Assembly (NCBI RefSeq): GCF_002843305.1
Contig: NZ_PGSG01000119.1
Span: forward strand, 124,001 to 188,000
Length of the DNA stretch: 64,000 nt
Source: Streptomyces barkulensis
GTDB taxonomy: Bacteria > Actinomycetota > Actinomycetes > Streptomycetales > Streptomycetaceae
Reading direction: 5' to 3'
A program made the position numbers and the translations under genes. Below, piece by piece: positions 8,485 through 64,000 of the stretch. Each line of letters begins with the position of its first letter. The first letter of the stretch is position 1. The notes under the pieces were generated by a model, which saw nothing but the letters and a program-made list of their open reading frames with translations, had not been told where the DNA came from and ran no database searches.

Positions 8485-8491
8485 TGGAGGA

Positions 8492-9160: not shown

Positions 9161-9192
9161 GGCCCGGCGGCCGGGCTCCCCTCGCGCGCCCG

Positions 9193-9564
9193 TCACCCGG
9201 CCGGCTGAAGGAACTCCAGCCGGTTGCCGACGGGGTCGGCGCTGTGGAAGCGGCGCACGCCGGGGACGGAGTCGTCCCAGGTGACCGGGTGCCCGGCGTC
9301 CGCCAGGCGGGTGGCCAGGGTGTCCAGGGTTTCGGCGTCCCTCACCCGCAGGCCGGGGTGGGCCTTGAGCGCGGGCCGGAAATCCTCCTCGATCCCGAGG
9401 TGGAGCCGGACGGAGCCGGCTTCGAACCAGCAGCCGCCGCGGGCCGCGAGGGCGGGCGGCTTGGGGGTCTCCGCCATACCGAGCAGTCCGGTGTAGAAGG
9501 CGCGCAGGATCTCCTCGGATCCGCGCGGGGCGGCGAGCTGTACGTGGTCGAGCGCCTCGATCAC
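9193..9564 (-). CDS. VOC-family (glyoxalase/dioxygenase fold) protein
   Basis: The 123-aa protein has the vicinal-oxygen-chelate layout: an N-terminal LDHVQLAAPRGSEEILRAFY strand-helix, a central HLGIEEDFRPALKAHPGL, and a C-terminal FHSADPVGNRLEFLQP. Metal-ligand candidates are His7, His55 and the C-terminal Glu. The substrate cannot be told. The ribosome site is AAGGAG upstream of the start on the minus strand. It ends close to the convergent TetR gene. Confidence 0.85.
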   Translation of the reverse strand: MIEALDHVQLAAPRGSEEILRAFYTGLLGMAETPKPPALAARGGCWFEAGSVRLHLGIEEDFRPALKAHPGLRVRDAETLDTLATRLADAGHPVTWDDSVPGVRRFHSADPVGNRLEFLQPAG

Positions 9565-9600
9565 GGTGTCTCCTTCCGGAAGTCCGCCCGGCGGGCGCCC

Positions 9601-9628
9601 GGGCGTGGGTTCGTGGGCGTGGGTTCGT
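9601..9628. repeat. Tandem duplication of a 14-bp unit
   Basis: GGGCGTGGGTTCGT occurs twice head to tail (9601-9614 and 9615-9628) between the VOC and methyltransferase genes. Confidence 0.8.
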
Positions 9629-9638
9629 GGGCGCTCGC

Positions 9639-9660
9639 GCCGTCAGGTACACCTGACGGC
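9639..9660. terminator. 10-bp hairpin overlapping the methyltransferase stop
   Basis: GCCGTCAGGT (9639-9648) pairs with ACCTGACGGC (9651-9660) around a 2-nt loop and overlaps the stop codon of the leftward methyltransferase gene. Confidence 0.5.
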
Positions 9661-10476
9661 GACGGCGAAGATCCGGCGGAACGGGAAGAGGGTGCCGTGG
9701 GGGCCCGGCGGGTAGGCCTCGCGCAGCAGGTCGCGGTACTCGGCCAGGAACGCCTCGCGTGCGGCCGCGTCGGGGTCGAGTGCGGTGAGGACGGGACGCA
9801 GGGCGGTGCCCTTCATCCACTCCAGCACCGGGTCCCGGCCGGTGAGGACGTGCACGTACGTCGTCTCCCACACGTCCGTTTCGCAGCCGAGCGCCGCCAG
9901 CGCCTGGGCGTATTCGGCGGGTTCGGCCACAGGGGTGCGGCGGGTTCCGGCTCCGAGGCGGTCGCGCCAGCGCGGTGAGGTGCACAGGTCCGTGAGCAGG
10001 GTGTGCCCGGGGGCGGCGAAGTTGCCGGGGACCTGGAAGGCCAGGACGCCTGTGGGGCGCAGCGCCGCGATCCAGTCGGGGAAACGGGTGATGTGTCCGG
10101 GGCACCAGTGCAGCGCCGCGTTGGAGACGATCAGGTCGTGCGGCTCCTTGGGGTGCCAGGCGGCAAGGTCGGCGCGGGCGAAGTCCACGGCTCCGCCCCC
10201 GGAGGTGGGTCCGGCGTGCGCACGGGCCTCGGCGAGCATCGCCTCGGACAGGTCGTAGCCGGTGATCCGGGCCGCGGGCCAGTGTTCGGCCAGCAGAGCG
10301 GTCGGCTCGCCGGGGCCGCAGCCCAGGTCGGCGATGCGGGGCCGGGGCGAGGGCAGAGGGGGGACGCGGGCCAGCAGGTCGTGGAGCGGGCGCAGGCGGT
10401 GGCCGGCATGGCTGCGGTACTGCGCGGGGTCCCACACCGGGACGCCGGTGCGCCGGAGCGGGTCGGCTGGTTCCAT
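9643..10476 (-). CDS. SAM methyltransferase, trans-aconitate 2-methyltransferase-like
   Basis: Class I SAM-dependent methyltransferase. From the ATG at 10476 the 277-aa protein opens with WDPAQYRSHAGHRLRPLHDL, followed by the SAM motif IADLGCGPGEPTALL, YDLSEAMLAEA, and WCPGHITRFPDW, the pattern of Tam enzymes that methylate trans-aconitate. A longer in-frame GTG start at 10521 would run through the MarR-type palindrome, so I prefer 10476. It is divergent from the MarR gene and probably under its control. Confidence 0.82.
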   Translation of the reverse strand: MEPADPLRRTGVPVWDPAQYRSHAGHRLRPLHDLLARVPPLPSPRPRIADLGCGPGEPTALLAEHWPAARITGYDLSEAMLAEARAHAGPTSGGGAVDFARADLAAWHPKEPHDLIVSNAALHWCPGHITRFPDWIAALRPTGVLAFQVPGNFAAPGHTLLTDLCTSPRWRDRLGAGTRRTPVAEPAEYAQALAALGCETDVWETTYVHVLTGRDPVLEWMKGTALRPVLTALDPDAAAREAFLAEYRDLLREAYPPGPHGTLFPFRRIFAVAVRCT

Positions 10477-10499
10477 GGCAGTAGGGTCCGCCGGAGTTA

Positions 10500-10513
10500 T
10501 CTCGATGTCAAGA
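10500..10513. promoter_or_regulatory. MarR-type operator between methyltransferase and MarR genes
   Basis: TCTCGA-TG-TCAAGA is a 6-2-6 inverted repeat with one mismatch (perfect would be TCTTGA/TCAAGA). It sits between the divergent starts at 10476 and 10548, as expected for an autoregulatory MarR site. Confidence 0.6.
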
Positions 10514-10547
10514 GACTTCACGTCGACAGAACTACTACACTGTCCTC

Positions 10548-11042
10548 ATGGAGGACGAGGTCGACCGACTGGTGGCAGCGTGGCGCCGCGAGCGCCCCGA
10601 TCTCGATGTGGAGCCCCTGGAGGTGCTCAGCCGGGTCAGCAGGCTCGCCCGCCACCTCGACCGGGCCCGCCGCATCGCCTTCGCCGAACACGGGCTGGAG
10701 CCCTGGGAGTTCGACGTGCTGACCGCGCTGCGCCGGGCCGGCGCCCCCTACCAGCTCTCCCCCGGCCAGCTGCTGACGCAGACCCTGGTCACCTCCGGGA
10801 CCATGACCAACCGCATCGACCGGCTGGCGAAGAAGGGACTGGTGGAGCGGCTGCCCGACCCCAGCGACCGGCGCGGCGTACTGGTCCGGCTGACGGAGGC
10901 CGGACGCGACCGCGCCGACCGGGCCCTGGCCGGACTGCTGGAACAGGAGCGGGCCATCCTCGCCGAGCTGCCGTCCAGCCGGCGGGCGGAGCTGGCCGGG
11001 CTGCTGCGGCAGCTCACCGCGCCGTTCGACAACGTCCCCTGA
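10548..11042 (+). CDS. MarR-family transcriptional regulator
   Basis: The 164-aa protein has the MarR winged helix: LTALRRAGAPYQLSPGQLL, then VTSGTMTNRIDRLAKKGLVE with the wing DPSDRRGVLVRLTEAG, flanked by dimerisation helices. The ATG lies 72 bp from the divergent methyltransferase start with a palindrome between them, so it most likely represses both. No sensing cysteine of the OhrR type is apparent; the ligand is unknown. Confidence 0.9.
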   Translation: MEDEVDRLVAAWRRERPDLDVEPLEVLSRVSRLARHLDRARRIAFAEHGLEPWEFDVLTALRRAGAPYQLSPGQLLTQTLVTSGTMTNRIDRLAKKGLVERLPDPSDRRGVLVRLTEAGRDRADRALAGLLEQERAILAELPSSRRAELAGLLRQLTAPFDNVP

Positions 11043-11086
11043 CGGGGCCGTGACACGGGCCCGTCGCGGTCGGGGCGGGGTGGGAC

Positions 11087-11836
11087 TTACGTCGTCACAT
11101 GCTCCAGGTCCGCCGGGCCGACGCCCGCCTTGCGGGCCAGCGCCACCGCGGCCAGGGTGGAGTGCACCCCCAGCTTGCCCAGCACGTTCTGCATATGGGT
11201 GCGGACGGTGTGCGGGGAGAGGTACAGCCGCTCGGCGACCGCCTTGCGGCCCAGCCCGGCCACCATGCAGCGCAGCACCTCGTGCTCGCGCGGGGTCAGC
11301 GACTCCACCAGCCGCTCGCTCTCGGTGCGGTGCCTGCGCGTCGCGGTCAGCTCGCGCAGCACCCCGGTCAGCAGGGCGGGCGGCAGATGTGTCTCGCCGC
11401 GCAGCACCCCACGGACCACATGGAGCAGCCGGGACAGCGAGCTCTCCTTGGCGACCCAGCCCGACGCCCCCGCCTGGAGCGCGGCGGCCGCGCGGCGCGG
11501 GTCGTCGCGCTCGGCGAGCACCACGGTGCGGACCTCGGGGTGGTCGCTGCGGACCCGTGAGACCAGGGCGATGCCGCCGGCCGCGGCAGGCGCTTCGGCG
11601 GTGGCCGGGTCCGGTGGCGACGCGGCGGCCGCCGGCACGGCGGCCCCCAGATCGGCGTCGATCAGCAGGACGTCGAAGCGGCGGCCGTCGGCCGCCGCCC
11701 GTTCCAGGGTGCGCAGCGCGGCGGGGCCGCTGCCGGCCGCGGCCACCTCCACGTCCTGCTCCACCGCGAGTGCCGCGGCGAGGGACTCGGCGAATATGCG
11801 ATGGTCGTCCACCACGAGAACCCGGATACGTTGCAC
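11087..11836 (-). CDS. LuxR/NarL-type response regulator, orphan
   Basis: The 249-aa protein has an N-terminal receiver (VLVVDDHR acidic pair, phospho-acceptor Asp in LLIDADLG, Lys in WVAKESS) and a C-terminal LuxR helix-turn-helix (LTPREHEVLRCMVAGL through SPHTVRTHMQNVLGKLGVHS). A Pro/Ala-rich insertion after the phospho-Asp strand is unusual. I placed the start at GTG 11836, where the receiver fold begins, with an AGGGGG-type site upstream. A GTG two codons earlier is possible. No sensor kinase gene is adjacent. It resembles the regulator at 18058 on the other side of the gal genes. Confidence 0.85.
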   Translation of the reverse strand: MQRIRVLVVDDHRIFAESLAAALAVEQDVEVAAAGSGPAALRTLERAAADGRRFDVLLIDADLGAAVPAAAASPPDPATAEAPAAAGGIALVSRVRSDHPEVRTVVLAERDDPRRAAAALQAGASGWVAKESSLSRLLHVVRGVLRGETHLPPALLTGVLRELTATRRHRTESERLVESLTPREHEVLRCMVAGLGRKAVAERLYLSPHTVRTHMQNVLGKLGVHSTLAAVALARKAGVGPADLEHVTT

Positions 11837-12266
11837 GCACACCCCCTGCCGCCGAAAGGCCCACCCGCGCTCGGGCGCGGCGCCCGGTGCGGGGCCGGAC
11901 GGGCCGCACGTACACCGCCGTGCCCTGCTCGTACCCGGCCACCGCGCGCCGCATCCGGCGTGTGCCGCCCCCTGATGCGCACCGGCCCCCGGCGGCCGGT
12001 GCCGTCCATCAGCGTAGGGCCGGGACGCGGCCGAAGAGACCGGTTGGCGAAAACCGACCGTCCGCACGGTCCGCGGCGACCGGACGTGCACGGCCGGTGG
12101 TGTCCGGTGCGGCGCGGTCCGACCGCTTCCGACGCATTGTGATCACCGCACCGGCCGCCGCACGGCACGCCCCGCCGCGCACACCCCGCCGCGCACACCC
12201 GGCCCCGGACCCGGCCCCGGGCTCGGGCTCGGGCTCGGCGTCTCACCCGTCCAGCGATCCGGCGCC
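11837..12266. other. 430-bp intergenic stretch
   Basis: No coding sequence with convincing features is seen. It should hold the promoter of the leftward response-regulator gene. The right end is repetitive: short GGCTCG-type units (about 12220-12238) and a copy of CTCACCCGTCCAGC (12242-12255) that recurs at 12266-12279 across the galK stop codon. Confidence 0.6.

Positions 12267-12279
<13 letters not shown>
12242..12279. repeat. 14-bp direct repeat at the galK 3' end
   Basis: CTCACCCGTCCAGC occurs at 12242-12255 and 12266-12279, period 24 bp. The second copy contains the galK stop, so the first is a partial duplication of the gene's end. Confidence 0.75.
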
Positions 12280-13480
<1,201 letters not shown>

Positions 13481-13484
<4 letters not shown>

Positions 13485-14530
13485 GTTCCGCTCCCCTCTC
13501 CGCCGTCACCGCCGTAGCCGTCGCCGCCGGCGCCGCCGTAGCCGTCGCCGCCGGCGTCCGGCGCCCTGCCCCGGGCGAAGGCCCAGGCGTCGGCGACGAT
13601 GTCCTTCAGGTCGGTGCGCGAGGGCCGCCAACCCAGCCGCCGCCTGGCCCGCTCCGCCGAGGCGACCAGGAACGCCGGGTCGCCGCCGCGGCGCGGCGCC
13701 GTCTTCTCGGGCACGGGGTGGCCGGTGACCTCGCGGACGGTGCGGATCACCTCGCGGACGGAGAAGCCGCTGCCGTTGCCCAGGTTGCACACCAGGTGCT
13801 CCCCCGGCGCCGCGGCCTCCAGCGCCAGCAGATGGGCCTCGGCCAGATCGGCGACGTGGATGTAGTCGCGTACGCAGGTGCCGTCGGGGGTGGGGTAGTC
13901 GTCGCCGTAGACCGAGATCGCCTCCCGCTGCCCGAGCGCGACCTGCAGCACCAGCGGGATGAGGTGCGACTCGGGGTCGTGCCGCTCGCCGAGGGTGCCG
14001 TGCGCGCCGCGGTAGGCGCCGGCCACGTTGAAGTAGCGCAGCGAGACGGCGGCCAGGCCGTGGGCGGCGCACTCGCCGGCGATCATGTGGTCGACGGCGA
14101 GCTTGGAGGCGCCGTAGGGGTTGGTGGGGGCGGTGGGCGCGTCCTCGCGGATGGGGGTCTCCTCGGGTTCGCCGTAGGTGGCGGCGGTGGAGGAGAAGAC
14201 CAGGGTGCGCACACCGGCCCCGCGCATCGCGTCCAGCAGCGCCATGGTGCCGCCGACGTTGTTGTGCCAGTACTTCTCGGGGTGGAGGACGGACTCGCCG
14301 ACCTGGGAGCTGGCCGCGAAGTGCAGCACCGCGTCACAGGAAGGATCCAGCCAGTCGGCGGCGTCCTGGACGCGCGCCCGGACGAAGTCCGCGCCCGCCG
14401 GCACGGCCGCGCGGAAGCCGGTGGACAGGTCGTCCACCACCGTCACCCGGTGTCCGGCCTCCAGCAGGTGCGCCGCGACGACGCTTCCGACGTAGCCGGC
14501 CCCGCCGGTCACCAGATACGTGCCGCTCAC
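13481..14530 (-). CDS. galE: UDP-glucose 4-epimerase with Gly/Asp-rich tail
   Basis: Interconverts UDP-galactose and UDP-glucose. The 349-aa extended SDR has the NAD motif [10 protein letters not shown], the catalytic Ser-Tyr-Lys (SSTAATYGE and NPYGASKLA) and [10 protein letters not shown]. The GTG start at 14530 overlaps the galT stop (GTGA, 14527-14530). The last 25 or so residues are a Gly/Asp/Tyr repeat ([15 protein letters not shown]) coded by an imperfect tandem repeat at about 13503-13558. This tail is absent from ordinary GalE and is probably a disordered add-on. Confidence 0.95.
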
Positions 14531-15651
14531 CGGCTCGCCACCTCCCGCAGTCGCCGCGCCGCGGTCTCGGGCGGCACGTCGTTGATGAAGACCCCCATGC
14601 CCGACTCCGAGCCCGCCAGGTACTTCAGCTTCCCGGACGTGCGGCGGATCGTGAAGAGTTCCAGGTGGAGGGCGAAGTCCGCCCGTCCGGCCCAGTCCTT
14701 CTCCCCCTCCGGGCCCAGCGGCGCCTGGTGCCAGCCGGAGATGTAGGGCGTGGGCGGCTCGCCGGGGCCGAAGATCCGGTCGAAGCGCCGCAGCAGCTCC
14801 AGGTAGACGCCGGGGAAGTCGGCGCGGGCGTCCTCGCCGAGTTCCGTCAGGTCCGCCGCCCGCCGCCGGGGGTACAGGTGCACCTCGTAGGGCCAGCGCG
14901 CGGCGTGCGGCACGAAGGCGGTCCAGTGGCCGGTCTCCAGCACCACGCGCCGTCCGTCGGCGCGCTCGGCGGCCACGACGTCGTCGAAGAGGTTGCCGCC
15001 GGTGCGTTCCCGGTGGGCGGCGGCCGAGCGCAGGGTGCGCCCGGTGTGCGGGGTGACGAAGGGATAGGCGTAGATCTGGCCGTGGGGGTGGCCGAGGGTG
15101 ACGCCGATCTCCCGGCCCCGGTTCTCGAAGCAGAACACCTGGCGCACGCCCGGCAGCGCCGACAGCTCGGCGGTGCGGTCGGTCCAGGCGTCCAGGACCA
15201 GGGCGGCCCGTTCCTCGGTGAGGTCGGCGAAGGAGGCGTCGTGGTCGGAGGTGAAGCACACCACCTCGCAGCGTCCGGCGCCCGGGGCCCGGAGGAACAG
15301 GCCGCTTCCGTCCTCGGCCTCCGCCGGCCCCGGGGGGCCGGCCAGGGAGGGGAAGCGGTTCTCGAAGACGGCCACCTCGTAGTCCTCCGCCGGGATCTCC
15401 GTCAGCCGGCCCTCACGGGAGGGGCACAGGGGGCATTCGTCGGCCGGCGGGTGGTAGGTGCGGGCCTGGCGGTGCGCCGTGACCGCGACCCATTCGCCGA
15501 GCAGGGGGTCGTGGCGGATCTCCGAGGCGGTGGCGACGGCGTCCAGGGGGCGCCGGTCCACGGCGTCGCGTCCCAGGGCGCCGTGGCCGCCGCGAACGTC
15601 GTAGTACACGAGTTCGCGGCCGTCGGCGAGGCGGGTCGGGGTCTTTTTCAC
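14527..15651 (-). CDS. galT: Galactose-1-phosphate uridylyltransferase
   Basis: Transfers UMP from UDP-glucose to galactose 1-phosphate. The 374-aa protein contains the zinc-site pair [34 protein letters not shown] with the nucleophilic His of the HPH triad, and a C-terminal [11 protein letters not shown] chose GTG 15651 (AGGGAGA upstream); the longer reading has no ribosome site and crosses the promoter region. It is the first gene of galT-galE-galK, divergent from a symporter. Confidence 0.95.
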
Positions 15652-15663
15652 GTGGGGTCTCCC

Positions 15664-15713
15664 TATACTGCGACCCAAACATAATCGAACATAAAAAACC
15701 ATGAGTGAACATT
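15664..15713. promoter_or_regulatory. gal control region with phased AACATA repeats
   Basis: Between galT and the symporter lies an AT-rich block unlike the surroundings. AACATA occurs at 15678 and 15688, and AACATT at 15708, so the copies are 10 and 20 bp apart on one face of the helix. A TATA-containing sequence (15664-15667) is close to the galT start. The arrangement suggests an operator for a regulator controlling both directions. Confidence 0.5.
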
Positions 15714-15770
15714 GACGTCAAGGGGCCTCCCCCCACAGCGGCCCCGTCACGCCACGGAGGCGACCTGCTC

Positions 15771-17444
15771 ATGCCGTCGTACCAGTTGGCCCAGGATCTT
15801 CGGCTCCCCACGAACGCCCTGGACTACACGATCCTGGCCATCTACTTCCTCGTCGTCCTCGGAGTCGGGTTCGCCGCCCGGCGCAGCATCAAGACCAGCC
15901 TGGACTTCTTCCTCTCCGGCCGCTCGCTGCCCGCCTGGGTCACCGGCCTCGCCTTCATCGCGGCGAACCTCGGCGCGCTGGAGATCCTGGGCATGGCGGC
16001 CAACGGCGCGCAGTACGGCGTCTACACCGTGCACTGGTACTGGGTTGGCGCCATCCCGGCGATGGTCTTCCTCGGCCTGGTGATGATGCCCTTCTACTAC
16101 GGGTCCCGGGTGCGCTCGGTCCCCGAGTTCCTGCTGCACCGCTTCGGGCCCTCGTCCCACCTGCTCAGCGGCGTCCTCTTCTCGGCCGCCTCGGTGCTGA
16201 TCGCGGGCGTCAACCTCTACGCGCTGGCCATCGTGCTGGAGGCGCTGCTGGGCTGGCCGCAGTGGGTGTCCATCGTGGTCTCGGGCCTGTTCGTGCTGCT
16301 CTACATCACCCTGGGCGGTCTGTCCTCGGCCATCTACAACGAGGTCGTGCAGTTCTTCGTGATCCTGGCCGGGCTGATCCCGCTGACCGTCCTGGCCCTG
16401 GTCCGCGTGGGCGGCTGGAGCGGTCTGCGCGACTCGCTCACCGCCTCGCAGGGCGACAACTTCGTCTCGGCCTGGGGCGGGACCGGCATCGGTTCGGACA
16501 ACCCGCTGGGCGCCAACTGGCTCACCATCGTGCTCGGCCTCGGCTTCGCCCTGAGCTTCGGCTACTGGACGACGAACTTCGCCGAGGTCCAGCGCGCCCT
16601 GTCGGCCAAGAACCTCTCAGCCGCCCAGCGCACCCCGCTGATCGCCGCCTTCCCCAAGATCTTCATTCCGGCGATCGTCGTCATCCCCGGCCTGGTGGCG
16701 CTGGTGGTGGCGCCGGACATCGGGCAGGGCAGCGGCCTGGAGTACAACGAGGCGGTCCCCCTGCTGATGCGCGACCTGCTGCCCAACGGCGTGCTGGGCA
16801 TCGCGGTGACCGGTCTGCTCGCCGCCTTCATGGCCGGCATGGCCGCCAACGTCTCCGCCTTCAACACCGTCTTCACCAACGACATCTGGCGGCCCTACCT
16901 GGTCAAGGACCGCCCGGACTCGTACTACGTGGTCACCGCGCGCGTGGTCACCGCGGTCGGTGTGCTGCTGGGCATGGGGACGGCGTTCATCGCGGCGACG
17001 TTCAGCAACATCATGAACTACCTCCAGACGCTGTTCTCCTTCTTCAACGTGCCGCTGTTCACCGTCTTCATCATCGGCATGTTCTGGAAGCGGATGACGG
17101 CCGCGGCCGGTTTCTGGGGGCTGCTGGCAGGCACGGTCTCGGCGATGGTCAACTACTTCTGGTTCTACCGGGGCGGACTGATCGACATTCCCACCGACCA
17201 GGGTGCCAACTTCGTCTCCGCCATCGTCGCCTTCGTCACGGGCACACTCGTCGTCGTGGTCCTCACCCCCCTCACCAGGCCCAAGCCCGTCGAGCGGCTG
17301 GCCGGCCTGGTGTACGGCACCCGGGCCCCCGGTGTGGCCGAGCCCCCGGCCGCGGGCGACGAGGCCTGGTACCGCAGGCCCGCGCTGCTGGGCTGGGGCG
17401 CGATCATCCTCGCCGCCCTCTGCTACCTCCCCTTCTCCTTCTGA
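15771..17444 (+). CDS. Sodium:solute symporter, probable galactose/sugar permease
   Basis: The 557-aa protein has about 14 hydrophobic segments of the SSS fold. It shows SLDFFLSGRSLPAWVTGLAF, AANLGALEILGMAANGAQYG, a central LSFGYWTTNFAEVQRALSAK and AFMAGMAANVSAFNTVF, all typical SSS signatures. ATG 15771 follows CGGAGG at 15755-15760; an upstream in-frame ATG at 15705 lies inside the gal promoter block. Divergence from galT makes galactose import the most likely role. Confidence 0.88.
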   Translation: MPSYQLAQDLRLPTNALDYTILAIYFLVVLGVGFAARRSIKTSLDFFLSGRSLPAWVTGLAFIAANLGALEILGMAANGAQYGVYTVHWYWVGAIPAMVFLGLVMMPFYYGSRVRSVPEFLLHRFGPSSHLLSGVLFSAASVLIAGVNLYALAIVLEALLGWPQWVSIVVSGLFVLLYITLGGLSSAIYNEVVQFFVILAGLIPLTVLALVRVGGWSGLRDSLTASQGDNFVSAWGGTGIGSDNPLGANWLTIVLGLGFALSFGYWTTNFAEVQRALSAKNLSAAQRTPLIAAFPKIFIPAIVVIPGLVALVVAPDIGQGSGLEYNEAVPLLMRDLLPNGVLGIAVTGLLAAFMAGMAANVSAFNTVFTNDIWRPYLVKDRPDSYYVVTARVVTAVGVLLGMGTAFIAATFSNIMNYLQTLFSFFNVPLFTVFIIGMFWKRMTAAAGFWGLLAGTVSAMVNYFWFYRGGLIDIPTDQGANFVSAIVAFVTGTLVVVVLTPLTRPKPVERLAGLVYGTRAPGVAEPPAAGDEAWYRRPALLGWGAIILAALCYLPFSF

Positions 17445-17482
17445 GCGCCCCGCGCACCGCACAGCGAAGGATGTGATCCACC

Positions 17483-17995
17483 GTGACGAACGACGGCAAC
17501 GACGGCAACGACGGCAACGACGGCAACGGCAGCAACGAGGGCAACGGCGGCGGTGCGGGCGGTCCGCACGGCGCCCACGAGTACCGCGGCCCCTCCGACT
17601 CCCGCACCCCCTCCGGTCCTTCCGACCCCGCCGACCCCGCCGACCCCGGTGTCCCCGGCGCCGGCAAGGGCGATCCGGAGCCGGACTGGCGGGAGGAGGA
17701 GCGCGACCTGGAGGAGCGGTCGGCCAGCGCCGCCCGGCTGTTCGACATCCGCCGTGTCATCGGCGTGCTGTTCGTGGTCTACGGCCTCCTGGTCACCATC
17801 GCGGGCTTCTTCGTCTCCGACGCCGACCTGGCCAAGGCCCAGGACGTCAACATCAACCTCTGGGCCGGGCTGTCGATGCTGGTGCTGGGACTGCTGTTCC
17901 TGCTCTGGCTGCGGCTGAGCCCGACGGTTCCGCCGCCGTCCCGGCGGGAGACCGAAGGCGGCGGCCCCGGTGGCACGCCGCCCGCCGGGGAGTGA
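17483..17995 (+). CDS. Small two-helix membrane protein
   Basis: The 170-aa protein begins with a disordered Asn/Asp/Gly repeat (NDGNDGNDGNDGNGSN) and Pro-rich stretch to about residue 85. Two transmembrane segments follow (IGVLFVVYGLLVTIAGFFV and LSMLVLGLLFLLWLRL), then a short tail. GTG 17483 follows AAGGA. It starts 38 bp after the symporter stop and is probably cotranscribed with it, so an accessory role in transport is possible but unproven. Confidence 0.75.
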   Translation: MTNDGNDGNDGNDGNGSNEGNGGGAGGPHGAHEYRGPSDSRTPSGPSDPADPADPGVPGAGKGDPEPDWREEERDLEERSASAARLFDIRRVIGVLFVVYGLLVTIAGFFVSDADLAKAQDVNINLWAGLSMLVLGLLFLLWLRLSPTVPPPSRRETEGGGPGGTPPAGE

Positions 17996-18057
17996 CCCGC
18001 GCGTCCGCCGCCGTACGGGCCGGGGCTCAGCGGCGGTACGGGTGCGGGGCCGGGACG

Positions 18058-18783
18058 TCAGCCCGGCCCCGCACCCCGGCCCGCACCCTGGCCCGCGCCC
18101 CGGTCCGCACCACCGTGCCCGCCGGCCACCCGGTCCAGCAGCCCGGTGCGGGCCGCCAGCGCCGCCGCCTCCAGCCGCGATCCGACCCCGAGCTTCATCA
18201 GCACCCGCTGCACATGGGTGCGGGCCGTGCTGGGCGCGACCCCCATACCCACCGCGATCGCCCGGGTGTCCTCCCCCTCCGCCACCCGCACCAGCACCTC
18301 GGCCTCGCGCGGGGTGAGCATCCGCAGCAGCCTGACGCCCTCGTCGTCCGGCTCGGCCCTCGGATTGAGCAGCTCCGCGAAGGCGCTCCGCAGCAGTTGC
18401 GGCGCCACCGCCGCCTCCCCGGCCCGCGCCCTGGCCATGCCGCGCTCGACACCCTCGATCCGCTCGTCGTGCCGTATGTAGCCCGACGCCCCCGCCGCGA
18501 ACGCCGCCGCTATCCCCCGCGGACTGGGCACCGGACCCAGTACCACCACGGCGGTTTGCGGCCGCTCCCGCCTGATCCTGGCCACGGGGTCGAACGCCCC
18601 GGGCTCGGCGGGCGACGCCGTGCCCCACAGACACACCTCGGGGGCCCTGCTGACCACCAGTTCCGCCGCCCCCGCGGCCGGCGCGGCGGCGGCGAGCACC
18701 CGGTGCCCGCGCAACCTCAGCGCCGAGGCGAGCGCCTCGGCGTGCAGACGGTGGTCGTCGACCACCATGAGCCGCACGGTCAT
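18058..18783 (-). CDS. LuxR-type regulator with degenerate receiver
   Basis: The 241-aa protein looks like a NarL-type response regulator: MVVDDHRLHAEALASALRL at the N-terminus and a C-terminal LuxR helix-turn-helix (LTPREAEVLVRVAEGEDTRA through STARTHVQRVLMKLGVGS). The strand that should carry the phospho-acceptor Asp reads PEVCLWGTASP, with no Asp, and the conserved Lys is replaced (GYIRHDE). It should therefore act without phosphorylation. The last residues are a Gly/Ala/Arg tail. I chose ATG 18783 with AGGGG 5 nt upstream. No sensor kinase is nearby. Confidence 0.85.
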   Translation of the reverse strand: MTVRLMVVDDHRLHAEALASALRLRGHRVLAAAAPAAGAAELVVSRAPEVCLWGTASPAEPGAFDPVARIRRERPQTAVVVLGPVPSPRGIAAAFAAGASGYIRHDERIEGVERGMARARAGEAAVAPQLLRSAFAELLNPRAEPDDEGVRLLRMLTPREAEVLVRVAEGEDTRAIAVGMGVAPSTARTHVQRVLMKLGVGSRLEAAALAARTGLLDRVAGGHGGADRGAGQGAGRGAGPG

Positions 18784-18950
18784 CCGCACCCCTGTCGTTC
18801 CGCCGGCCCCGGTCTTCCGGGGCCGGGCCGTGCCCCGTACGGCCCTTCGAGCCGCCCGGCTCCGTCTTGCCCCCGGAAGCTACACGCTCCCCCGGCATCC
18901 CGCGCCCCTTCCGGCAAGAACCGGCGGGACCTCCCGCGGACCCACGCGAG

Positions 18951-18988
18951 CGGCCCCGCGCCCCTCCACGGGAAGGGGCGCGGGGCCG
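18951..18988. terminator. 14-bp stem-loop after the PQQ-propeller gene
   Basis: Perfect arms 18951-18964 and 18975-18988 around a 10-nt loop, about 50 bp after the leftward stop at 19036. Confidence 0.7.
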
Positions 18989-19035
18989 TCGGTGGCGGCG
19001 GGCCGCCGCGAGGGGCCGGATACGGCCGCGGGACC

Positions 19036-55698: not shown

Positions 55699-56672
55699 TA
55701 CGCGCTCTCCTTCCCGGCCGGCGTTCCGGCCGGCGGTGTGTTCCGCTGTTCGGCTTCCTGCCGTACGCCGTCCGCCAGGTGGTCGCGCACCAGCGCGGCC
55801 ACCGCGCCGGCGACGGCGCCGGGGTCCTCCAGGGGCGTCATGTGCCCCAGGCCGGGCAGTTCGGTCAGGCCGGTGCAGTTCGGCAGCGCCTCGGCGAGGC
55901 GGTGGGAGAGCACCGGCGGGGTGAGCCGGTCCTTCTCGCCGGCGATGACGCCGACGGGCAGGTCCAGGGAGGCGAGGTTGGCGTCCAGGTCCAGCACGGC
56001 CAGGACCCTCCGGGCCCAGAAGGCGCGTACGGTGCGCGGGCAGGCGTGGACGATGCGGGCGCACGCCCGCATCTGCTCCTTCGTCGCGCCGGGGCCCATG
56101 GTGGCGTACCGCAGGACGCGCATGCCCAGTGGCGTCACCGGCCCCAGCGGCAGGCTGGAGCCGAGGACGGCCTTCTGGATCCGGTAGCGCAGTCTCCCCG
56201 CTCTCAGCGGGGCGACGGTGGACTCGTCCAGCAGCCGGGAGCTGCCGGTGTTGCACAGCAGCGCGGCGGCGACGCGCTCGCGCATCTGCGGGCGCCCGGC
56301 GGCGGCCATGACCGTCATGCCGCCCATGGAGTGCCCGGCGACGACCGCCCGGGACCCGGCTACGTCCAGGACGGCGCACAGGTCGTCGGCGAGGGCGTCG
56401 GTGCTGTAGCCGTCGGGGCCGACGGCCGGGGAGCGGCCGTGGCCGCGCTGGTCGTAGACGAACACCCGGTGGTCCTCGGCCAGCCGCCGGACCACGGGGC
56501 CCCAGAAGGCGGTCGAGCAGGTCCAGCCGTGCACCAGGACGACGGTCGGCCCGTCCTCGCGCCCGTGCTCCTCGACGTGCAGCCGGGAGCCGTCGGCGGA
56601 GGTCACGGTCAGCTCGCGGCGGGGGGTGGGCGGGGCGTACGGCCCGCCGGTCGTTCGGGGTCCACGGCTCAT
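55698..56672 (-). CDS. Alpha/beta hydrolase
   Basis: The 324-aa hydrolase has the oxyanion motif VVLVHGWTCSTAFW, the strand-6 motif YDQRGHGRS and the nucleophile elbow VVAGHSMGGMT with Ser115, the acid in GEKDRLTPP and His in LPGLGHMTPLEDP. It could hydrolyse the ester or lactone made by the monooxygenase. It overlaps the monooxygenase stop by 4 bp (ATGA) and the SDR start by 1 bp. Confidence 0.92.
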   Translation of the reverse strand: MSRGPRTTGGPYAPPTPRRELTVTSADGSRLHVEEHGREDGPTVVLVHGWTCSTAFWGPVVRRLAEDHRVFVYDQRGHGRSPAVGPDGYSTDALADDLCAVLDVAGSRAVVAGHSMGGMTVMAAAGRPQMRERVAAALLCNTGSSRLLDESTVAPLRAGRLRYRIQKAVLGSSLPLGPVTPLGMRVLRYATMGPGATKEQMRACARIVHACPRTVRAFWARRVLAVLDLDANLASLDLPVGVIAGEKDRLTPPVLSHRLAEALPNCTGLTELPGLGHMTPLEDPGAVAGAVAALVRDHLADGVRQEAEQRNTPPAGTPAGKESA

Positions 56673-58189
56673 CGGTTCGCCTCCGCCTTCCGCTGTCCGG
56701 CGCGGGCCGGGGCCCGCAGCACCTCGTACTCGGCCAGGTCCACGTGCCTGGTCACCTTCCTGAACTCGCCGGTCGTGCCCGGCCACACGGTGGTGTTGCG
56801 GCCGTTGGCGTCCAGGTACCAGCTGTCGCAGCCGCCGGTGTTCCACACGGTGCGCGTCATCCGCCGCTGGACGTGGTCGGTCCACGAGCGCACCGCCTCG
56901 GGGCGGGCGTCGAGCGCGGCCCGGCCGCCCGGTCCGGAGGTGAGCGTCTCCAGCTGCCCGAGGTAGTCGATCATGTAGTTCAGCTGCGCCTCGATCATGA
57001 GGATCATCGAGCTGTTGCCGAGGCCGGTGTTGGGCCCGATGACGGTCATGAAGTTGGGGAAGCCCGTGGCCGTGGAGCCGCGCAGCGCCTCCATGCCGTC
57101 CTTCCAGGCCTCGGCCAGCGTGATGCCGTCCGCTCCGGTGATCCGCCGGGCGACCGGCATGTCGGTGACGTGGAAGCCGGTGCCGAAGATCACCGCGTCC
57201 ACCTCGGTCTCGGTGCCGTCGGCGGCCACCAGGGTGTTGCCGCGCACCTCCTTCAGACCGGAGGCGACCACGTCCACGTTGGGCTGGACCAGGGCCGGAT
57301 AGTAGGTGTTGGACAGCAGGATGCGCTTGCAGCCGATGCGGTAGTCGGGGGTCAGTTTGGCGCGCAGCACCGGGTCCTTGACGACCTTGGTCATGTGGTG
57401 TCCGGCGAGCTTCTCCACCAGGCCGAGCTGTGCGGGGTGCTTGGTGAAGGCGCCGACCTGGAACTCCCTGATCAGCCAGAGCATCTGGCGGCGCAGCGCG
57501 CGCGTGGGGGGCACCTTGGCGTGCAGCCAGCGCTCGGCTTGGGTGATCTTCCGGTCCATGCGCGGCATGACCCACGGCGGGGTGCGCTGGAAGAGGGTGA
57601 GTCTGTCCACCAGCGGCTGGATCGAGGGGACGATCTGGATGGCGGAGGCGCCGGTGCCGATCATGGCGACACGCTTGCCGCGCAGGTCGTAGTCGTGGTC
57701 CCACTGGGCCGAGTGGAAGACCTTGCCGGTGAAGCCGTCCAGGCCGGGGATGTCGGGGATCTTGGGGTCGGAGAGCGGTCCGGTGGCCGAGACGAGCATG
57801 TCGGCGGTCAGGGTGCCGCGGGCGGTCTCGATCTCCCAGTGCAGCGCTCCGGTGTCCCAGCGGGCGCTCAGCACCTCGGAGTTGAAGCGGATGTGGGGGC
57901 GCAGTCCGAAGGTGTCGGCGACCTTCTCCAGGTAGGCGCGGATGTGCTCCTGCCCGGAGAAGTTCCGCGGCCAGTCGGGGTTGGGCGCGAACGAGAACGA
58001 GTAGAGGTGGGAGGGCACGTCGCAGGCGCACCCGGGGTAGCTGTTGTCGCGCCAGGTGCCGCCCACGGAGTCGCGGCGCTCCAGTACGGCGAAGTCCGTG
58101 ATGCCCGCGCGGCGCAGTCGTACGGCGGCGCCCAGGCCGCCGAATCCCGACCCGATCACCGCCACCCGTACGTGTTCGTGTCCGGCCAT
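56669..58189 (-). CDS. Baeyer-Villiger-type flavin monooxygenase
   Basis: Uses FAD, NADPH and O2 to insert oxygen next to a carbonyl. The 506-aa protein has the FAD motif VIGSGFGGLGAAV (residues 11-23), the BVMO fingerprint FTGKVFHSAQWD (about 153-164) and the NADPH motif VAMIGTGASAIQI (about 174-186). ATG 58189 is the clear start. It heads an operon with a hydrolase and an SDR, reminiscent of the mycobacterial mymA operon (BVMO, LipR, SDR). Confidence 0.93.
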   Translation of the reverse strand: MAGHEHVRVAVIGSGFGGLGAAVRLRRAGITDFAVLERRDSVGGTWRDNSYPGCACDVPSHLYSFSFAPNPDWPRNFSGQEHIRAYLEKVADTFGLRPHIRFNSEVLSARWDTGALHWEIETARGTLTADMLVSATGPLSDPKIPDIPGLDGFTGKVFHSAQWDHDYDLRGKRVAMIGTGASAIQIVPSIQPLVDRLTLFQRTPPWVMPRMDRKITQAERWLHAKVPPTRALRRQMLWLIREFQVGAFTKHPAQLGLVEKLAGHHMTKVVKDPVLRAKLTPDYRIGCKRILLSNTYYPALVQPNVDVVASGLKEVRGNTLVAADGTETEVDAVIFGTGFHVTDMPVARRITGADGITLAEAWKDGMEALRGSTATGFPNFMTVIGPNTGLGNSSMILMIEAQLNYMIDYLGQLETLTSGPGGRAALDARPEAVRSWTDHVQRRMTRTVWNTGGCDSWYLDANGRNTTVWPGTTGEFRKVTRHVDLAEYEVLRAPARAGQRKAEANR

Positions 58190-58262: not shown

Positions 58263-58318
58263 CATGCCAGTAATCACTGGCATGGTTGGAGAGTAGAGTA
58301 GGAACGTACCCATGGGTA
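58263..58318. promoter_or_regulatory. Two palindromes between the BVMO operon and the MerR gene
   Basis: CATGCCAGT (58263-58271) and ACTGGCATG (58276-58284) are perfect 9-bp arms around AATC. TACCCATGGGTA (58307-58318) is a second, perfect 12-bp palindrome. Both lie between divergent starts at 58189 and 58400 and are good operator candidates. Confidence 0.65.
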
Positions 58319-58399
58319 GGGGTGCGGCGGGGGAAAGTTACCGCCGGTTGCACCCCTGGCCCGGGCGTCCGGCCGCCGACGCCGCATAGGCTCTCCGGT

Positions 58400-59281
58400 G
58401 TGGCGGACAGAACATCGGCGGACAGCGGACGGACGGACGGCGCGGCACACGCGCGGACCGGACCCGAGGAGGACGGCACGGCCCCGCCCGCCGAGTACCG
58501 CACGGCCGAACTCGCCAGGGCGGCCGGCATCACCGTGCGCACCCTGCGGTTCTACCGCGAGCGCAGACTCCTCCCGCCGCCGCGCCGCGAGGGCCGCATC
58601 GCCTGGTACAACGAGCACCACCTCAACCGGCTGCGGACGATCTCCGCACTGCTGGCCCGCGGCCACACCCTCGGCGGGATCGCCGACCTGATCGACGCCT
58701 TCGAGAAGGGCCGGGACGCGGGCGGCGCGGCCGAACTGCTCGGCCTGGAGAGCGCGCTGGTCTCCCCCTGGTCCGAGGAGACCCCCGTCCGCCTCACCCC
58801 CGAGGACCTGGCCGCGCACTTCCCCGACGAGGTCACCTCCGACAACCTCGCCGCCGCCCTGAACCTGGGCTACGTCGCCGTCGACGGCGACGAGGTCGTC
58901 CACGTCAGCCGCCGCCTGCTCGACGCCTCCACCGCCCTGGTGGGCGAGGGCATCCCGCTGGGGGCCGTGCTGGAGGCCGGGCGCGTGGTGCGCGAGCACG
59001 CCGACGCCGTCGCCGACCTGTTCACCAACCTCGTCCGCGCCCATCTGTTCACCGGTGTCCGCGAGCTCTCCCCCGACGACCTTCGCCGCCTGTCGGACGT
59101 GATGGACCGGCTGCGCCCGCTGGCCAAGCAGGTGGTCGACGTCGAACTGGCTCTGGCCATGGACCGCCGCGTCCGCGCGGAGCTGGAGAGCTGGTCGCGG
59201 CCGGGCGGGCAGAGCGGGCCGGGCGGGGAACCCGGAGGACCGGGACCAAGCGGGGAGCCGCGGAGCCCGTCCGGCGGCTGA
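58400..59281 (+). CDS. MerR-family transcriptional regulator
   Basis: The 293-aa protein has a MerR helix-turn-helix plus wing (RTAELARAAGITVRTLRFYR then RLLPPPRREGRIAWYNEHHL, about residues 32-75) and a dimerisation helix. A large C-terminal effector domain of about 180 residues ends in a Gly/Pro/Ser tail. GTG 58400 follows TAGGCT (58387-58392) by 7 nt, so transcription may be leaderless. No metal-binding cysteine pair is present; an organic ligand is likely. Divergent from the monooxygenase operon. Confidence 0.88.
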   Translation: MADRTSADSGRTDGAAHARTGPEEDGTAPPAEYRTAELARAAGITVRTLRFYRERRLLPPPRREGRIAWYNEHHLNRLRTISALLARGHTLGGIADLIDAFEKGRDAGGAAELLGLESALVSPWSEETPVRLTPEDLAAHFPDEVTSDNLAAALNLGYVAVDGDEVVHVSRRLLDASTALVGEGIPLGAVLEAGRVVREHADAVADLFTNLVRAHLFTGVRELSPDDLRRLSDVMDRLRPLAKQVVDVELALAMDRRVRAELESWSRPGGQSGPGGEPGGPGPSGEPRSPSGG

Positions 59282-60648: not shown

Positions 60649-61433
60649 ACGGCCGTCACCGGCGCGTGGTCGCTCCACCGGCCCGCGTGGTCGGCCGCGC
60701 GCTCCACGTACGCCTTCACCGCCCGCCGCGCCAGCGGCTCGGTGGCCACGTGGAGGTCGATCCTCCACCCCGCGTCATTGTCAAAAGCCCGGCCCCGGTA
60801 GGACCACCACGAGTACGGCCCGTCCTGGTCCGGGTGGAGGCGGCGGACGACGTCGGCGTAGCCGGCCTCGCCGAAGACCCGGCCGAGCCAGGCGCGCTCC
60901 TCGGGCAGGAAGCCGGAGTTCTTCCGGTTGGCCTTCCAGTTCCTGATGTCGGCCTCCTGGTGGGCGATGTTCCAGTCGCCGCAGACCAGGACCTCGCGGC
61001 CGGCCGCGGCGGCGCGCTCGCGCAGCCCGGCCAGATAGGGCAGGAAGGCCGCCATGAAGCGCTCCTTCTCCTCCTGCCGCTCGGTGCCGACCTCACCCGA
61101 GGGCAGGTAGAGGCTGGCGACGGTCAGGCCCGGCAGGTCCACCTCCAGATAGCGGCCGGAGTCCGTGAACTCGCTCACCCCGAACCCCACCCGCACCTCC
61201 TCGGGCGCACGCCGGGTGAGCACCGCCACGCCCGCGCGCCCCTTGGCGGCGGCCGGGGCGTACACCGCGTGCCAGCCCTCCGGATCGCGTACCTCGCCGG
61301 GGAGTTGGTCCGGCTCGGCGCGCACCTCCTGCAGGCACACCACATCCGCCTCGGTGGCGGCCAGCCACTGGGTGTAGCCCTTCTTCGCGGCGGCGCGCAG
61401 CCCGTTCACATTGACCGTCGAAATCGTCAGCAC
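60636..61433 (-). CDS. xth: Exodeoxyribonuclease III
   Basis: AP endonuclease and 3'-5' exonuclease of base-excision repair. The 265-aa protein has TISTVNVNGLRAAAKKG, the metal Glu in VCLQEVRAEP, the catalytic VCGDWNIAH, and the C-terminal HVATEPLARR and WSDHAPVTAVY with the Asp-His pair. ATG 61433 lies 22 bp from the divergent GNAT start. Confidence 0.95.
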   Translation of the reverse strand: MLTISTVNVNGLRAAAKKGYTQWLAATEADVVCLQEVRAEPDQLPGEVRDPEGWHAVYAPAAAKGRAGVAVLTRRAPEEVRVGFGVSEFTDSGRYLEVDLPGLTVASLYLPSGEVGTERQEEKERFMAAFLPYLAGLRERAAAAGREVLVCGDWNIAHQEADIRNWKANRKNSGFLPEERAWLGRVFGEAGYADVVRRLHPDQDGPYSWWSYRGRAFDNDAGWRIDLHVATEPLARRAVKAYVERAADHAGRWSDHAPVTAVYAP

Positions 61434-61455
61434 CCCGGCACCTTACGATGCGGAC

Positions 61456-61935
61456 ATGCGCATCACGCCCGTCGCCTACGACCACCCCGACGCCGCGAAG
61501 CTCACCGATCTGGTGCAGCTGGAGTACGCCGAGCGCTACGGCGGCGAGGGCGACGTCACACCGCTGGACCCCGGGATGTTCTCGCCGCCCGGCGGCCTGT
61601 TCCTGATCGCGTACGACGAGCGGGACCGGCCCGTGGCCACCGGCGGCTGGCGGGCGATGGACGAGAACGGGGAGAACTACCGCGACGGCGACGCCGAGCT
61701 CAAGCGGATGTTCGTGATCCGCGAGGCGCGGCGCCGGGGGCTGTCCCGCCGCATCCTGGCCCTGCTGGAGGAGGACGCGCGGGAGGCGGGGCGGCTGCGG
61801 ATGGTGCTGGAGACCGGCACCAAGCAGCCGGAGGCGATGGCGCTGTACGAGTCGAGCGGCTACACGCCCACCGAGAAGTTCGGGGTCTACCGCCACGAGC
61901 CCGACAGCCGCTGCTACGCCAAGCCCCTGCGCTGA
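61456..61935 (+). CDS. GNAT-family N-acetyltransferase
   Basis: The 159-aa protein has the GNAT core: LIAYDERDRPVATGGWRAM, then ELKRMFVIREARRRGLSRRI with the acetyl-CoA loop R-R-x-G-L-S, and MVLETGTKQPEAMALYESSG. ATG 61456 lies 6 nt after TACGAT, so a leaderless message is possible. The substrate is unknown. Confidence 0.9.
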   Translation: MRITPVAYDHPDAAKLTDLVQLEYAERYGGEGDVTPLDPGMFSPPGGLFLIAYDERDRPVATGGWRAMDENGENYRDGDAELKRMFVIREARRRGLSRRILALLEEDAREAGRLRMVLETGTKQPEAMALYESSGYTPTEKFGVYRHEPDSRCYAKPLR

Positions 61936-61987: not shown

Positions 61988-62018
61988 TTGACCTCAAGCC
62001 CGCTTGAGGTCATACGTT
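61988..62018 (+). promoter_or_regulatory. SoxR-type box and promoter before nat
   Basis: TTGACC (61988-61993), a 19-bp spacer and TACGTT (62013-62018) make a promoter with the long spacing typical of MerR-family targets. Inside it TGACCTCAAGC-CC-GCTTGAGGTCA (61989-62012) is a perfect 11-bp-armed palindrome containing CCTCAAG-N4-CTTGAGG, the SoxR-box arms. Confidence 0.72.
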
Positions 62019-62081
62019 CGTTCGCGCAGGCCGGCGCCCGCCGACCCGCGCGGGCGCACACGACGGGGAGGGCGTACGGCC

Positions 62082-63050
62082 ATGACGGACGCGGAGAGCA
62101 CGGACACGGAGAACACGGACGCGGAGAACACCGGCGAGGGCGGCGCGGACCGGCGCTGGGACGGCGCGGAGCTGGACCTGGACGCCTATCTGGCCCGGAT
62201 CGGCCACACCGGGGACCGCTCCCCCACCGAGGCGAACCTGCGCGCCCTGCACCGCGCGCACGTGCTGGGCATCCCCTTCGAGAACCTGGAGATCGTCCTG
62301 GGCCGGCCGGTCCCGCTCGGCCTGCCCGCCCTCCAGGACAAGATCGTGCGCCGGGCGCGCGGCGGTTACTGCTTCGAGCACGCCCGGCTCTTCGCCGCCG
62401 CCCTGGAGCGGCTGGGTTTCGGCGTCGGCGGCCTGACCTCGCGGGTGGGCATGGGCTCGGGCCGCGTACGTCCCGCCACGCACGCCGTCCTGCGCGTGGA
62501 GACGGCCGAGACGGCGGACACCGGGCGGGTGTGGATCTGCGACGTCGGCTTCGGAGGCAGTCCGCTGGAGCCGGTCGAGCTGGCCGACGGCGCGCGGACC
62601 TCCGGCAGCGGATGGGAGTTCCGGCTGGAGCGCCGCACCGCGCCCCAGGGTGCGACGGCGTCGGTCGGCGAGTGGGTGCTGCACGAGCGGCGCGGGGCCG
62701 GGGAGGACTGGTGCGATCTGCACACCTTCACCCTGGACCCGCGGTACGCGATCGACTGGGAGGTGGGCAGCCACTACGTCTCCACCCATCCGCGCTCGCC
62801 GTTCGTCCGGCGTCCGATCGTCCAGCGCACCGGCCCGGACGTCCGCCAGGCGCTGTACGGCGCGAGCTGGGTGACCACCGCCCGCGCGGACGGCTCGCGC
62901 CGGGTGCGGGAGCTGAGGCCGCGCGAGGTGCCCGAGATCCTGGGGGACGTCTTCGGCATCGAGCTGGACGCGGCCGACGCCGAGGCGCTCGCCGGCGCCG
63001 TGGAGCGCCTTCCCGCCGACGGCGGTCCGATCGGCGTACCGGCCGGCTGA
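62082..63050 (+). CDS. nat: Arylamine N-acetyltransferase
   Basis: Acetylates arylamines and hydrazines from acetyl-CoA. The 322-aa protein has the Cys-His-Asp triad: RGGYCFEHA (Cys97), PATHAVLRV (His134) and CDVGFGGS (Asp154), with the N-terminal LRALHRAHVLGIPFENLEIV. The first 25 residues are an acidic TDAENT-type repeat outside the conserved fold. ATG 62082 is preceded by GGGGAGGG. The SoxR-type promoter upstream suggests induction by redox-cycling compounds. Confidence 0.94.
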   Translation: MTDAESTDTENTDAENTGEGGADRRWDGAELDLDAYLARIGHTGDRSPTEANLRALHRAHVLGIPFENLEIVLGRPVPLGLPALQDKIVRRARGGYCFEHARLFAAALERLGFGVGGLTSRVGMGSGRVRPATHAVLRVETAETADTGRVWICDVGFGGSPLEPVELADGARTSGSGWEFRLERRTAPQGATASVGEWVLHERRGAGEDWCDLHTFTLDPRYAIDWEVGSHYVSTHPRSPFVRRPIVQRTGPDVRQALYGASWVTTARADGSRRVRELRPREVPEILGDVFGIELDAADAEALAGAVERLPADGGPIGVPAG

Positions 63051-63059
63051 GGGCATGCG

Positions 63060-63101
63060 CACGGGGGTGCGCCCGCCGGTTCCGGCGGGCGCACCCCCGT
63101 G
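63060..63101. terminator. 20-bp stem-loop between convergent genes
   Basis: Perfect arms 63060-63079 and 63082-63101 with a TT loop, between nat and the leftward surface-protein gene. Confidence 0.85.
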
Positions 63102-63140: not shown

Positions 63141-64000
63141 TCAGGCCGCCGCGCCGCCCGTACCGTCCGCGCCGGCGCCCGCCGCGCGGCGGCGGCGCAC
63201 GGTCACCACGGCCGCGCCGCCCGCGGCCAGCAGGAGCAGGGCGAGGCCGCCCGCCGTCAGCGCGGTCGTGCCGGTGGAGGCCAGGCTGCCGTCCGCGCTC
63301 TCGCCGCCGGAGGTGCCGCCGGAGGTCCCGGCGGAGCCGCCGTCGCCCTCGCCGTCCTCGCCGCCGTTCTTGCCGTCACCGTCGCCGCCGCCCTTGCCTT
63401 CGGAGCCGGAGCCGCCCGTGCCGCCGGTGGAGTCGCCGTCGCCGGGGGTCTCCTCGTCGCCGGTGCCGTTGAGCACGATCCAGCCGTCGTCGTTGGCGGG
63501 GTTCCCCTCCCAGGGGTTGTCCCACTCGGGCAGGTGGATCCGGCCCCTGGCGCCCTCGACGACCTTGTCGATCCGCAGCTCGAAGGCGAAGTCCTCCCGG
63601 CTGTCCTCCAGCATCGGGGTGTCGGCCCAGCACAGGTAGCTGTCGGGCTGCTCCACGCCCTCGATGTTGTGCGGGCCGCAGGCCCTGGGCGCCTTGGCCA
63701 CCGTCGCGCCCTCGGGGATGTCCACGGTGAAGCCGATGGGCTCGCCGCCCGCGCGCAGCGACCCGATCCAGCCCGGGCCGCGGTTGTGCATGGCGACGTC
63801 CACCGCCACCGTCTCGCCCTTCTTCCCCTTCACCCGGTCCCCGGTGAGGTCCAGGTCGTAGGTGTTCTTCCTCGGGAAGTCGAGCTCGGCGTACTGGACG
63901 TACTCGCCGTCGCCCTTGGCCTGCCTGAGCGTCAGTTCGGCGCCCTCGCCCTGGCGGTAGTCACCGCCCGCGCGCAGCCGGTCCGCCTCCTCGGGGGAGA
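63141..64000 (-). CDS. LASTG-anchored surface protein, 3' part (cut by window edge)
   Basis: The reading frame stays open to base 64000, so the 5' end lies outside the window. The visible 286 residues begin with an Ig-like or beta-rich region (GAELTLRQAKGDGEYVQYAE and VAVDVAMHNRGPGWIGSLRA) with two cysteines. A long Gly/Ser/Asp/Glu linker follows, then the sorting signal LASTG, a hydrophobic helix and RRRR. Like the protein at 3447 it should be attached by a class E sortase. The visible domain resembles secreted actinobacterial proteins of unknown role. Confidence 0.82.
   Translation of the reverse strand, partial: SPEEADRLRAGGDYRQGEGAELTLRQAKGDGEYVQYAELDFPRKNTYDLDLTGDRVKGKKGETVAVDVAMHNRGPGWIGSLRAGGEPIGFTVDIPEGATVAKAPRACGPHNIEGVEQPDSYLCWADTPMLEDSREDFAFELRIDKVVEGARGRIHLPEWDNPWEGNPANDDGWIVLNGTGDEETPGDGDSTGGTGGSGSEGKGGGDGDGKNGGEDGEGDGGSAGTSGGTSGGESADGSLASTGTTALTAGGLALLLLAAGGAAVVTVRRRRAAGAGADGTGGAAA

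Follow-up and report, generated by a model that had tools for sequence, protein, structure and literature searches.

SoxR is a sensor of redox-active antibiotics; to our knowledge, both its triggers in antibiotic producers and the targets of its protection there are still largely open. MerR-family activators operate on operators centred in over-long 19-bp spacers. The SoxR regulon of Streptomyces coelicolor comprises ecaA-ecaD, SCO2478, and SCO0320ext, and SoxR there activates an ABC transporter, oxidoreductases, and other genes; in S. avermitilis, a SoxR box lies before a transketolase gene (PMC4146615). More generally, MerR-family promoters hold their operator between the -35 and -10 elements, with a spacer of 19 to 20 bp (PMC5045206). 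On the enzyme side, the arylamine N-acetyltransferase (NAT) of Streptomyces griseus acetylates 3,4-AHBA and other 2-aminophenols (PMC11213898), and a NAT of phenazine-producing Pseudomonas converts 2-aminophenol to 2-acetamidophenol, as seen in strains without phzB (PMC7236291).

Judged from its sequence, the window analyzed here (the whole stretch, 64 kb of a Streptomyces genome) very probably contains a SoxR-activated promoter at 61988-62018, placed before a gene for an arylamine N-acetyltransferase (nat). The features of the locus are as follows.

61411..61935, + strand: GNAT-family acetyltransferase gene upstream of nat (open reading frame; Pfam Acetyltransf_1, 1.2e-11)
61988..61993, + strand: -35 hexamer TTGACC (from the sequence; TTGAC invariant in six Streptomyces)
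61992..62009, no strand: predicted SoxR box CCTCAAG-CCCG-CTTGAGG (from the sequence; dyad reaches 61989-62012)
62013..62018, + strand: -10 hexamer TACGTT (from the sequence; TAnnTT kept in 6/6 Streptomyces)
62029..62046, no strand: inverted repeat GGCCGGCG-CC-CGCCGACC in the nat leader (from the sequence; partly conserved)
62065..62072, + strand: ribosome-binding-site-like GGGGAGGG, 9 nt 5' of the ATG (from the sequence)
62082..63050, + strand: nat, arylamine N-acetyltransferase, 322 amino acids (open reading frame, Pfam, PDB match, motifs)
63060..63101, no strand: terminator-like perfect 20-bp inverted repeat with a 2-base centre (read directly from the sequence)

The + strand at 61988-62018 reads TTGACC-TCAAGCCCGCTTGAGGTCA-TACGTT, leaving a 19-bp spacer between -35 and -10 that is mostly occupied by the palindrome 61992-62009, and the dyad extends to perfect 10-bp arms (TGACCTCAAG/CTTGAGGTCA) at 61989-62012. 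Both features attributed to this site in the preliminary description hold: the arms are exact, with all 14 bases matching the SoxR consensus CCTCAAG-N4-CTTGAGG, and the promoter has the 19-bp spacing of the MerR type, which lies within the 19 to 20 bp of this family and is equal in five relatives. Within the window, the box is the sole match at ≤3 mismatches and itself has none; since shuffles of the window yield a mean of 2.38 matches at ≤3 mismatches, only this perfection is informative. By eye, the opposite strand has no -10 at a suitable distance from the box, which indicates that the promoter is directed at nat.

The gene at 62082-63050 encodes, by sequence, an intact arylamine N-acetyltransferase, confirming the earlier identification of the downstream gene. 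Its product matches Pfam Acetyltransf_2 over residues 52-298 (E 3.2e-57, 194.5 bits), its best PDB match is 3d9w (a putative acetyltransferase; E 5.2e-90), followed by arylamine N-acetyltransferases, and the motifs carrying Cys, His, and Asp are intact (GGYCFE, THA, and DVGFG). The protein is not closer to GdmF, of the RifF/GdmF type of ansamycin amide synthases, than to classical NATs: it scores 305 bits against 3d9w and 235 against 4guz versus 48 against GdmF. The next open reading frame (63141-63998) is convergent to nat, and the terminator-like repeat lies between the two, right after the nat stop, so that nat probably forms its own monocistronic transcription unit. The leader repeat at 62029-62046 is kept in outline in six Streptomyces and might act as a 5' hairpin or as a further operator. 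As a conserved RNA structure it was dropped: both sides are changed in 2 of 13 consensus pairs across these six genomes, and the covariation term is slightly unfavourable.

From base composition, 0.0001 perfect boxes are expected per window and 0.012 per 6,534,223-bp genome, whereas the genome holds three and, in addition, a box that departs from the consensus at one position; the nat box is not a chance occurrence. Besides the nat box, one perfect box precedes a quinone-oxidoreductase-like gene (ADH_N and ADH_zinc_N domains; TIGR02824 at 149.8 bits, below the model cut-off) and another an ABC exporter-type gene (best NCBIfam model MsbA, below cut-off). We refer to these genes as ecaD-like and ecaA-like, respectively, labels that rest on protein class and not on comparison with the S. 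coelicolor sequences. The single-mismatch box sits between the second of two soxR genes (soxR2) and a Transketolase_N gene, and it is perfect at the matching place in S. pini (L140) and S. verrucosisporus (L151). At ≤2 mismatches, the genome has 8 matches to the box versus 17 to a reversed control, so that only the perfect sites stand alone, and the two-mismatch sites (L013-L016) were set aside for this reason. At ≤1 mismatch, the five related Streptomyces have 23 box sites versus 9 for the reversed control. Ten genomes of other genera have 13 versus 8 at zero to one mismatch, a mild enrichment of the sites as a class; mismatched sites are, as a class, weakly supported.

The genes behind these 13 sites, assigned partly by eye with families from Pfam, are FMN reductases (L127, L132, and L133), quinone-oxidoreductase-like genes (L128 and L139), an MFS transporter (L131), soxR (L136), nat itself (L130), a pyridoxamine-oxidase-like gene (L134), and the gene of a 130-amino-acid protein with no Pfam match (L129); three further sites (L135, L137, and L138) complete the set. 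Many of the genes are of kinds that SoxR targets. The 130-amino-acid protein follows a one-mismatch box in Actinokineospora fastidiosa (L129, 1535-1924), and a protein of the same length without a Pfam match stands behind a SoxR-like box with two mismatches in the present genome (L013, 1095-1484); their N termini look alike by eye, and the protein may be a further SoxR target.

Among close relatives, the operator before nat is found within three mismatches in all five Streptomyces compared: S. pini, S. radiopugnans, and S. verrucosisporus carry a perfect copy, S. megasporus shows one mismatch, and Streptomyces sp. DH37 has a degenerate version with three. The 3' end of the GNAT gene also lies upstream of nat in the five (L047, L054, L048, L049, and L050), and boxes before the ecaD-like gene and soxR2 recur in them as well. 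In an alignment of the six species, which are not independent and of which the S. radiopugnans row stops inside the leader, the promoter has 22 invariant columns out of 31, versus 28 of 92 in the flanks (12/52 upstream and 16/40 in the leader; Fisher p = 1e-4). In S. verrucosisporus (L054, from 5001), the assembled nat frame stops about 110 codons past the start of the match, with box and promoter intact, which may reflect either a sequencing error or decay of the gene.

To describe the association beyond this lineage, we considered the best 80 of 149 nat relatives found in named genomes, searching 141 start positions upstream of each nat match. A box at ≤3 mismatches precedes nat in 17 of these 80 loci, five of them from the close Streptomyces, whereas 658,248 control positions from these 80 loci, mostly coding, give 2 matches. 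TTGAC abuts the box in 15 of the 17 (the exceptions being L068 and L116). A longer motif, TTGACCTCAAG-N4-CTTGAGGT, has its best site at ≤5 mismatches in 19 of the 80 loci and at 7 or more in the remaining 61; the 657,774 control positions contain two sites at ≤5. In Pseudonocardia eucalypti, the lone perfect box of the 9.6-Mb genome stands before nat, and weaker nat boxes occur in Actinomadura (three), Actinoalloteichus (two), Saccharopolyspora (two), Prauserella, and Actinokineospora. The nat-box link is lineage-limited: at ≤3 mismatches, no box was found in any of 29 further nat loci, 18 from elsewhere in the genus and 11 from elsewhere in the order (the best-scoring matches of 29 among the 46 other genomes that have a match), nor in the nat loci of Nocardia and Gordonia. 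In Gordonia araii (L079, 2834-4247), nat and a SoxR gene converge, the latter beginning or ending some 40 bp beyond the nat match, and nat has no box before it at ≤3 mismatches. On a nat tree built with a quick method, the box label needs 7 changes, compared with a mean of 14.3 for shuffled labels, and none of 500 shuffles was as low. This tree retains 104 of 110 rows, the short translations L054 (boxed), L019, L023, L027, L030, and L036 being left out, and L068 and L116 (no TTGAC) and L087 (four mismatches to the longer motif) are not labelled as boxed. Together with the absence from the 29 loci, the seven changes suggest either that the link is old and was often lost or that it was gained several times.

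An absence of SoxR genes from the genome, which the preliminary description had set against its own reading, is not what we found: two proteins score above the NCBIfam SoxR cut-off of 116.9 bits (207.1 and 195.2 bits), and both carry the CX2CXCX5C motif. The first soxR adjoins an FMN-reductase-like open reading frame (by eye) and has no box at ≤3 mismatches within the surrounding 3.4 kb. A box stands 9 bp 5' of the first ATG of the second gene, and residues 14-153 of the product, a stretch that takes in the cluster cysteines, align with E. coli SoxR (2zhg, E 7.7e-39). S. verrucosisporus, Streptomyces sp. DH37, and S. megasporus have a single SoxR above the cut-off, of the soxR2 type and beside a box and a transketolase-like open reading frame. 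That three of the five boxed relatives have no other type above the cut-off makes the second SoxR the likelier reader of the nat box. Co-occurrence of SoxR with the box was rejected as evidence, since SoxR is present in every genome checked, 15/15 boxed and 20/20 others (one of the latter, L055, carries a box, and two, L068 and L087, are borderline).

That nat is a SoxR target, as the preliminary description proposed, thus gains support from the SoxR genes, from a box kept in five related Streptomyces, and from the other perfect boxes before SoxR-type genes; SoxR binding, the induction of nat, and a redox-active amine as the substrate are the parts that we infer. Alternatively, the box might serve a MerR-family activator other than SoxR, one that recognises a similar half-site but answers to a different inducer, perhaps an aromatic amine, leaving SoxR a small role. 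Candidates for such a reader exist, as the genome encodes 14 further MerR-family matches below the SoxR cut-off, and a MerR-family gene of 35.7 bits, far below that cut-off, adjoins a one-mismatch box (L135) of Pseudonocardia eucalypti. The half-site is therefore not exclusive to SoxR, and other regulators may act at the weaker nat boxes: most boxes outside Streptomyces are degenerate, with one arm reading CCTCCAG instead of CCTCAAG in one Saccharopolyspora pair, Prauserella, and Actinokineospora, and another MerR-family protein could read them. However, the arms of the present box fit the SoxR consensus at 14 of 14 positions, the genome's other two perfect boxes precede SoxR-type targets, and none of six sub-cut-off MerR loci (L003-L008, of the 14) has a box at ≤3 mismatches. 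A non-SoxR MerR gene adjoining nat was also rejected as the reader, as the boxed loci, which span ≤5 kb on each side, have no MerR-family gene next to nat (phmmer, three queries, E ≤1e-3), and in the five related Streptomyces the nearest lies 3.7 to 3.9 kb away. We therefore consider a different MerR-family reader unlikely for this box.

Control by the MerR-family gene of the window itself (about 58286-59281, + strand, 3.8 kb upstream) is very improbable, even though the five related Streptomyces keep this gene close to nat, since the gap to its divergent neighbour has no SoxR-like box at ≤3 mismatches and carries a different repeat, CATGCCA-N8-TGGCATG, at 58263-58284. This repeat, which lies between the MerR-family gene and the divergent open reading frame 56669-58189 (- strand; resembling an FAD monooxygenase by eye), is possibly the operator of the adjacent regulator and is unlike the SoxR box. 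The least probable reading, to which we give hardly any credence, is that the palindrome arose by chance or survives as a relic and has no regulatory role. The three mismatches in DH37 do suggest relaxed constraint in that strain, but an expectation of 0.012 perfect sites per genome, a promoter more conserved than its flanks, and enrichment of the box before nat in other families all argue against it.

If SoxR control applies, resting SoxR would sit on the nat box without productive transcription, and redox-active metabolites would oxidise its [2Fe-2S] cluster. Following the established mechanism of the MerR family, activated SoxR would then distort the DNA so that -35 and -10 are aligned across the long spacer. 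Consequently, nat would be transcribed as a single gene, along with the ecaD-like and ecaA-like genes, and the enzyme would N-acetylate arylamines, probably of the 2-aminophenol type, so that less of them is oxidised to redox-cycling quinone-imines or phenoxazinones. This limitation of oxidation by acetylation is the final step of the explanation and its least supported one.

A possible source of substrate is a 3,4-AHBA-type (2-aminophenol) cassette in the same genome, which comprises DHQS II, an aldolase, and an AMP-ligase; the BagC/FevH and BagB/FevI models have strong matches in it, yet below their cut-offs. DHQS II is present in four of the six boxed Streptomyces and in none of three other genomes, against 27 of 121 genomes of a genus sample that includes the present genome and contains a match (G082) at the same position as that of S. 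megasporus. As a correlate of the nat box, the cassette is suggestive only, given that relatives are not independent. It lies on a different contig from nat, no box at ≤3 mismatches was found in the 19 kb around it, and two boxed Streptomyces lack DHQS II, which makes the substrate link hypothetical. Directly beside the cassette, which at this place shows DHQS II, a DhnA-type aldolase, an AMP-ligase, and an FAD monooxygenase, we observed a thiopeptide-type cluster (L157, G000:C23:44000-63000, 7477-18995) with a precursor at the Thiopep_pre cut-off and just above that of NF033400, and with a thiopeptide-type dehydratase C-terminal protein. A phenazine pathway was discarded as the source of the inducer, as PHZA_PHZB has matches in none of the six Streptomyces; in the three other genomes, it is over the cut-off in Pseudonocardia eucalypti, under it in Actinomadura oligospora, and lacks a match in the third. 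It is tempting to speculate that nat is a recurrent and hitherto unrecognised SoxR arm, acquired or retained in Streptomyces, Actinomadura, and Pseudonocardiaceae, and that in the present lineage an endogenous 3,4-AHBA pathway would give rise to redox-cycling phenoxazinones that activate SoxR, whereupon NAT would cap the amine and no chromophore would form. That phenoxazinones activate SoxR in this strain is an assumption, and we regard the scheme as a whole as tentative and rather doubtful.

The suggestion that nat is an unreported target is borne out as far as the titles and abstracts among the literature matches listed are concerned: none links SoxR to an arylamine N-acetyltransferase, a scope that covers neither subscription papers nor supplements such as the 55-genome table of PMC4146615. 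Apparently, nat is thus an unreported target of a known regulator and not a new kind of system, and the locus suggests that NAT may be a further part of the cell's response to redox-active antibiotics. If true, this would add to the responses known to be under SoxR control, as the transferase would remove the reactive amine itself, in contrast to exporting or reducing the compound, and a bacterial NAT would gain a defined physiological signal.

Compared with the S. coelicolor regulon, the arrangement is alike in that the operator lies within the promoter, small-molecule modifying enzymes and an ABC transporter are among the targets, and boxes precede ecaA-like and ecaD-like genes (by protein class) here too (PMC4146615). 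It differs in that none of the six S. coelicolor genes is an acetyltransferase, a word absent from the main text of PMC4146615, whereas the third perfect box here is that of nat. The NAT of S. griseus is alike at the level of the enzyme family, and the present genome also encodes a 3,4-AHBA cassette; SoxR control of that enzyme is not described in the main text of PMC11213898, from which "SoxR," "redox," and "promoter" are absent. With the soxS promoter of E. coli, the locus shares a SoxR box inside a MerR-type promoter (PMC4146615), and E. coli SoxR itself aligns with residues 14-153 of SoxR2. In contrast to E. coli, where SoxR acts on soxS, a gene confined to enteric bacteria (PMC4146615), the direct target here would be the gene of an enzyme.
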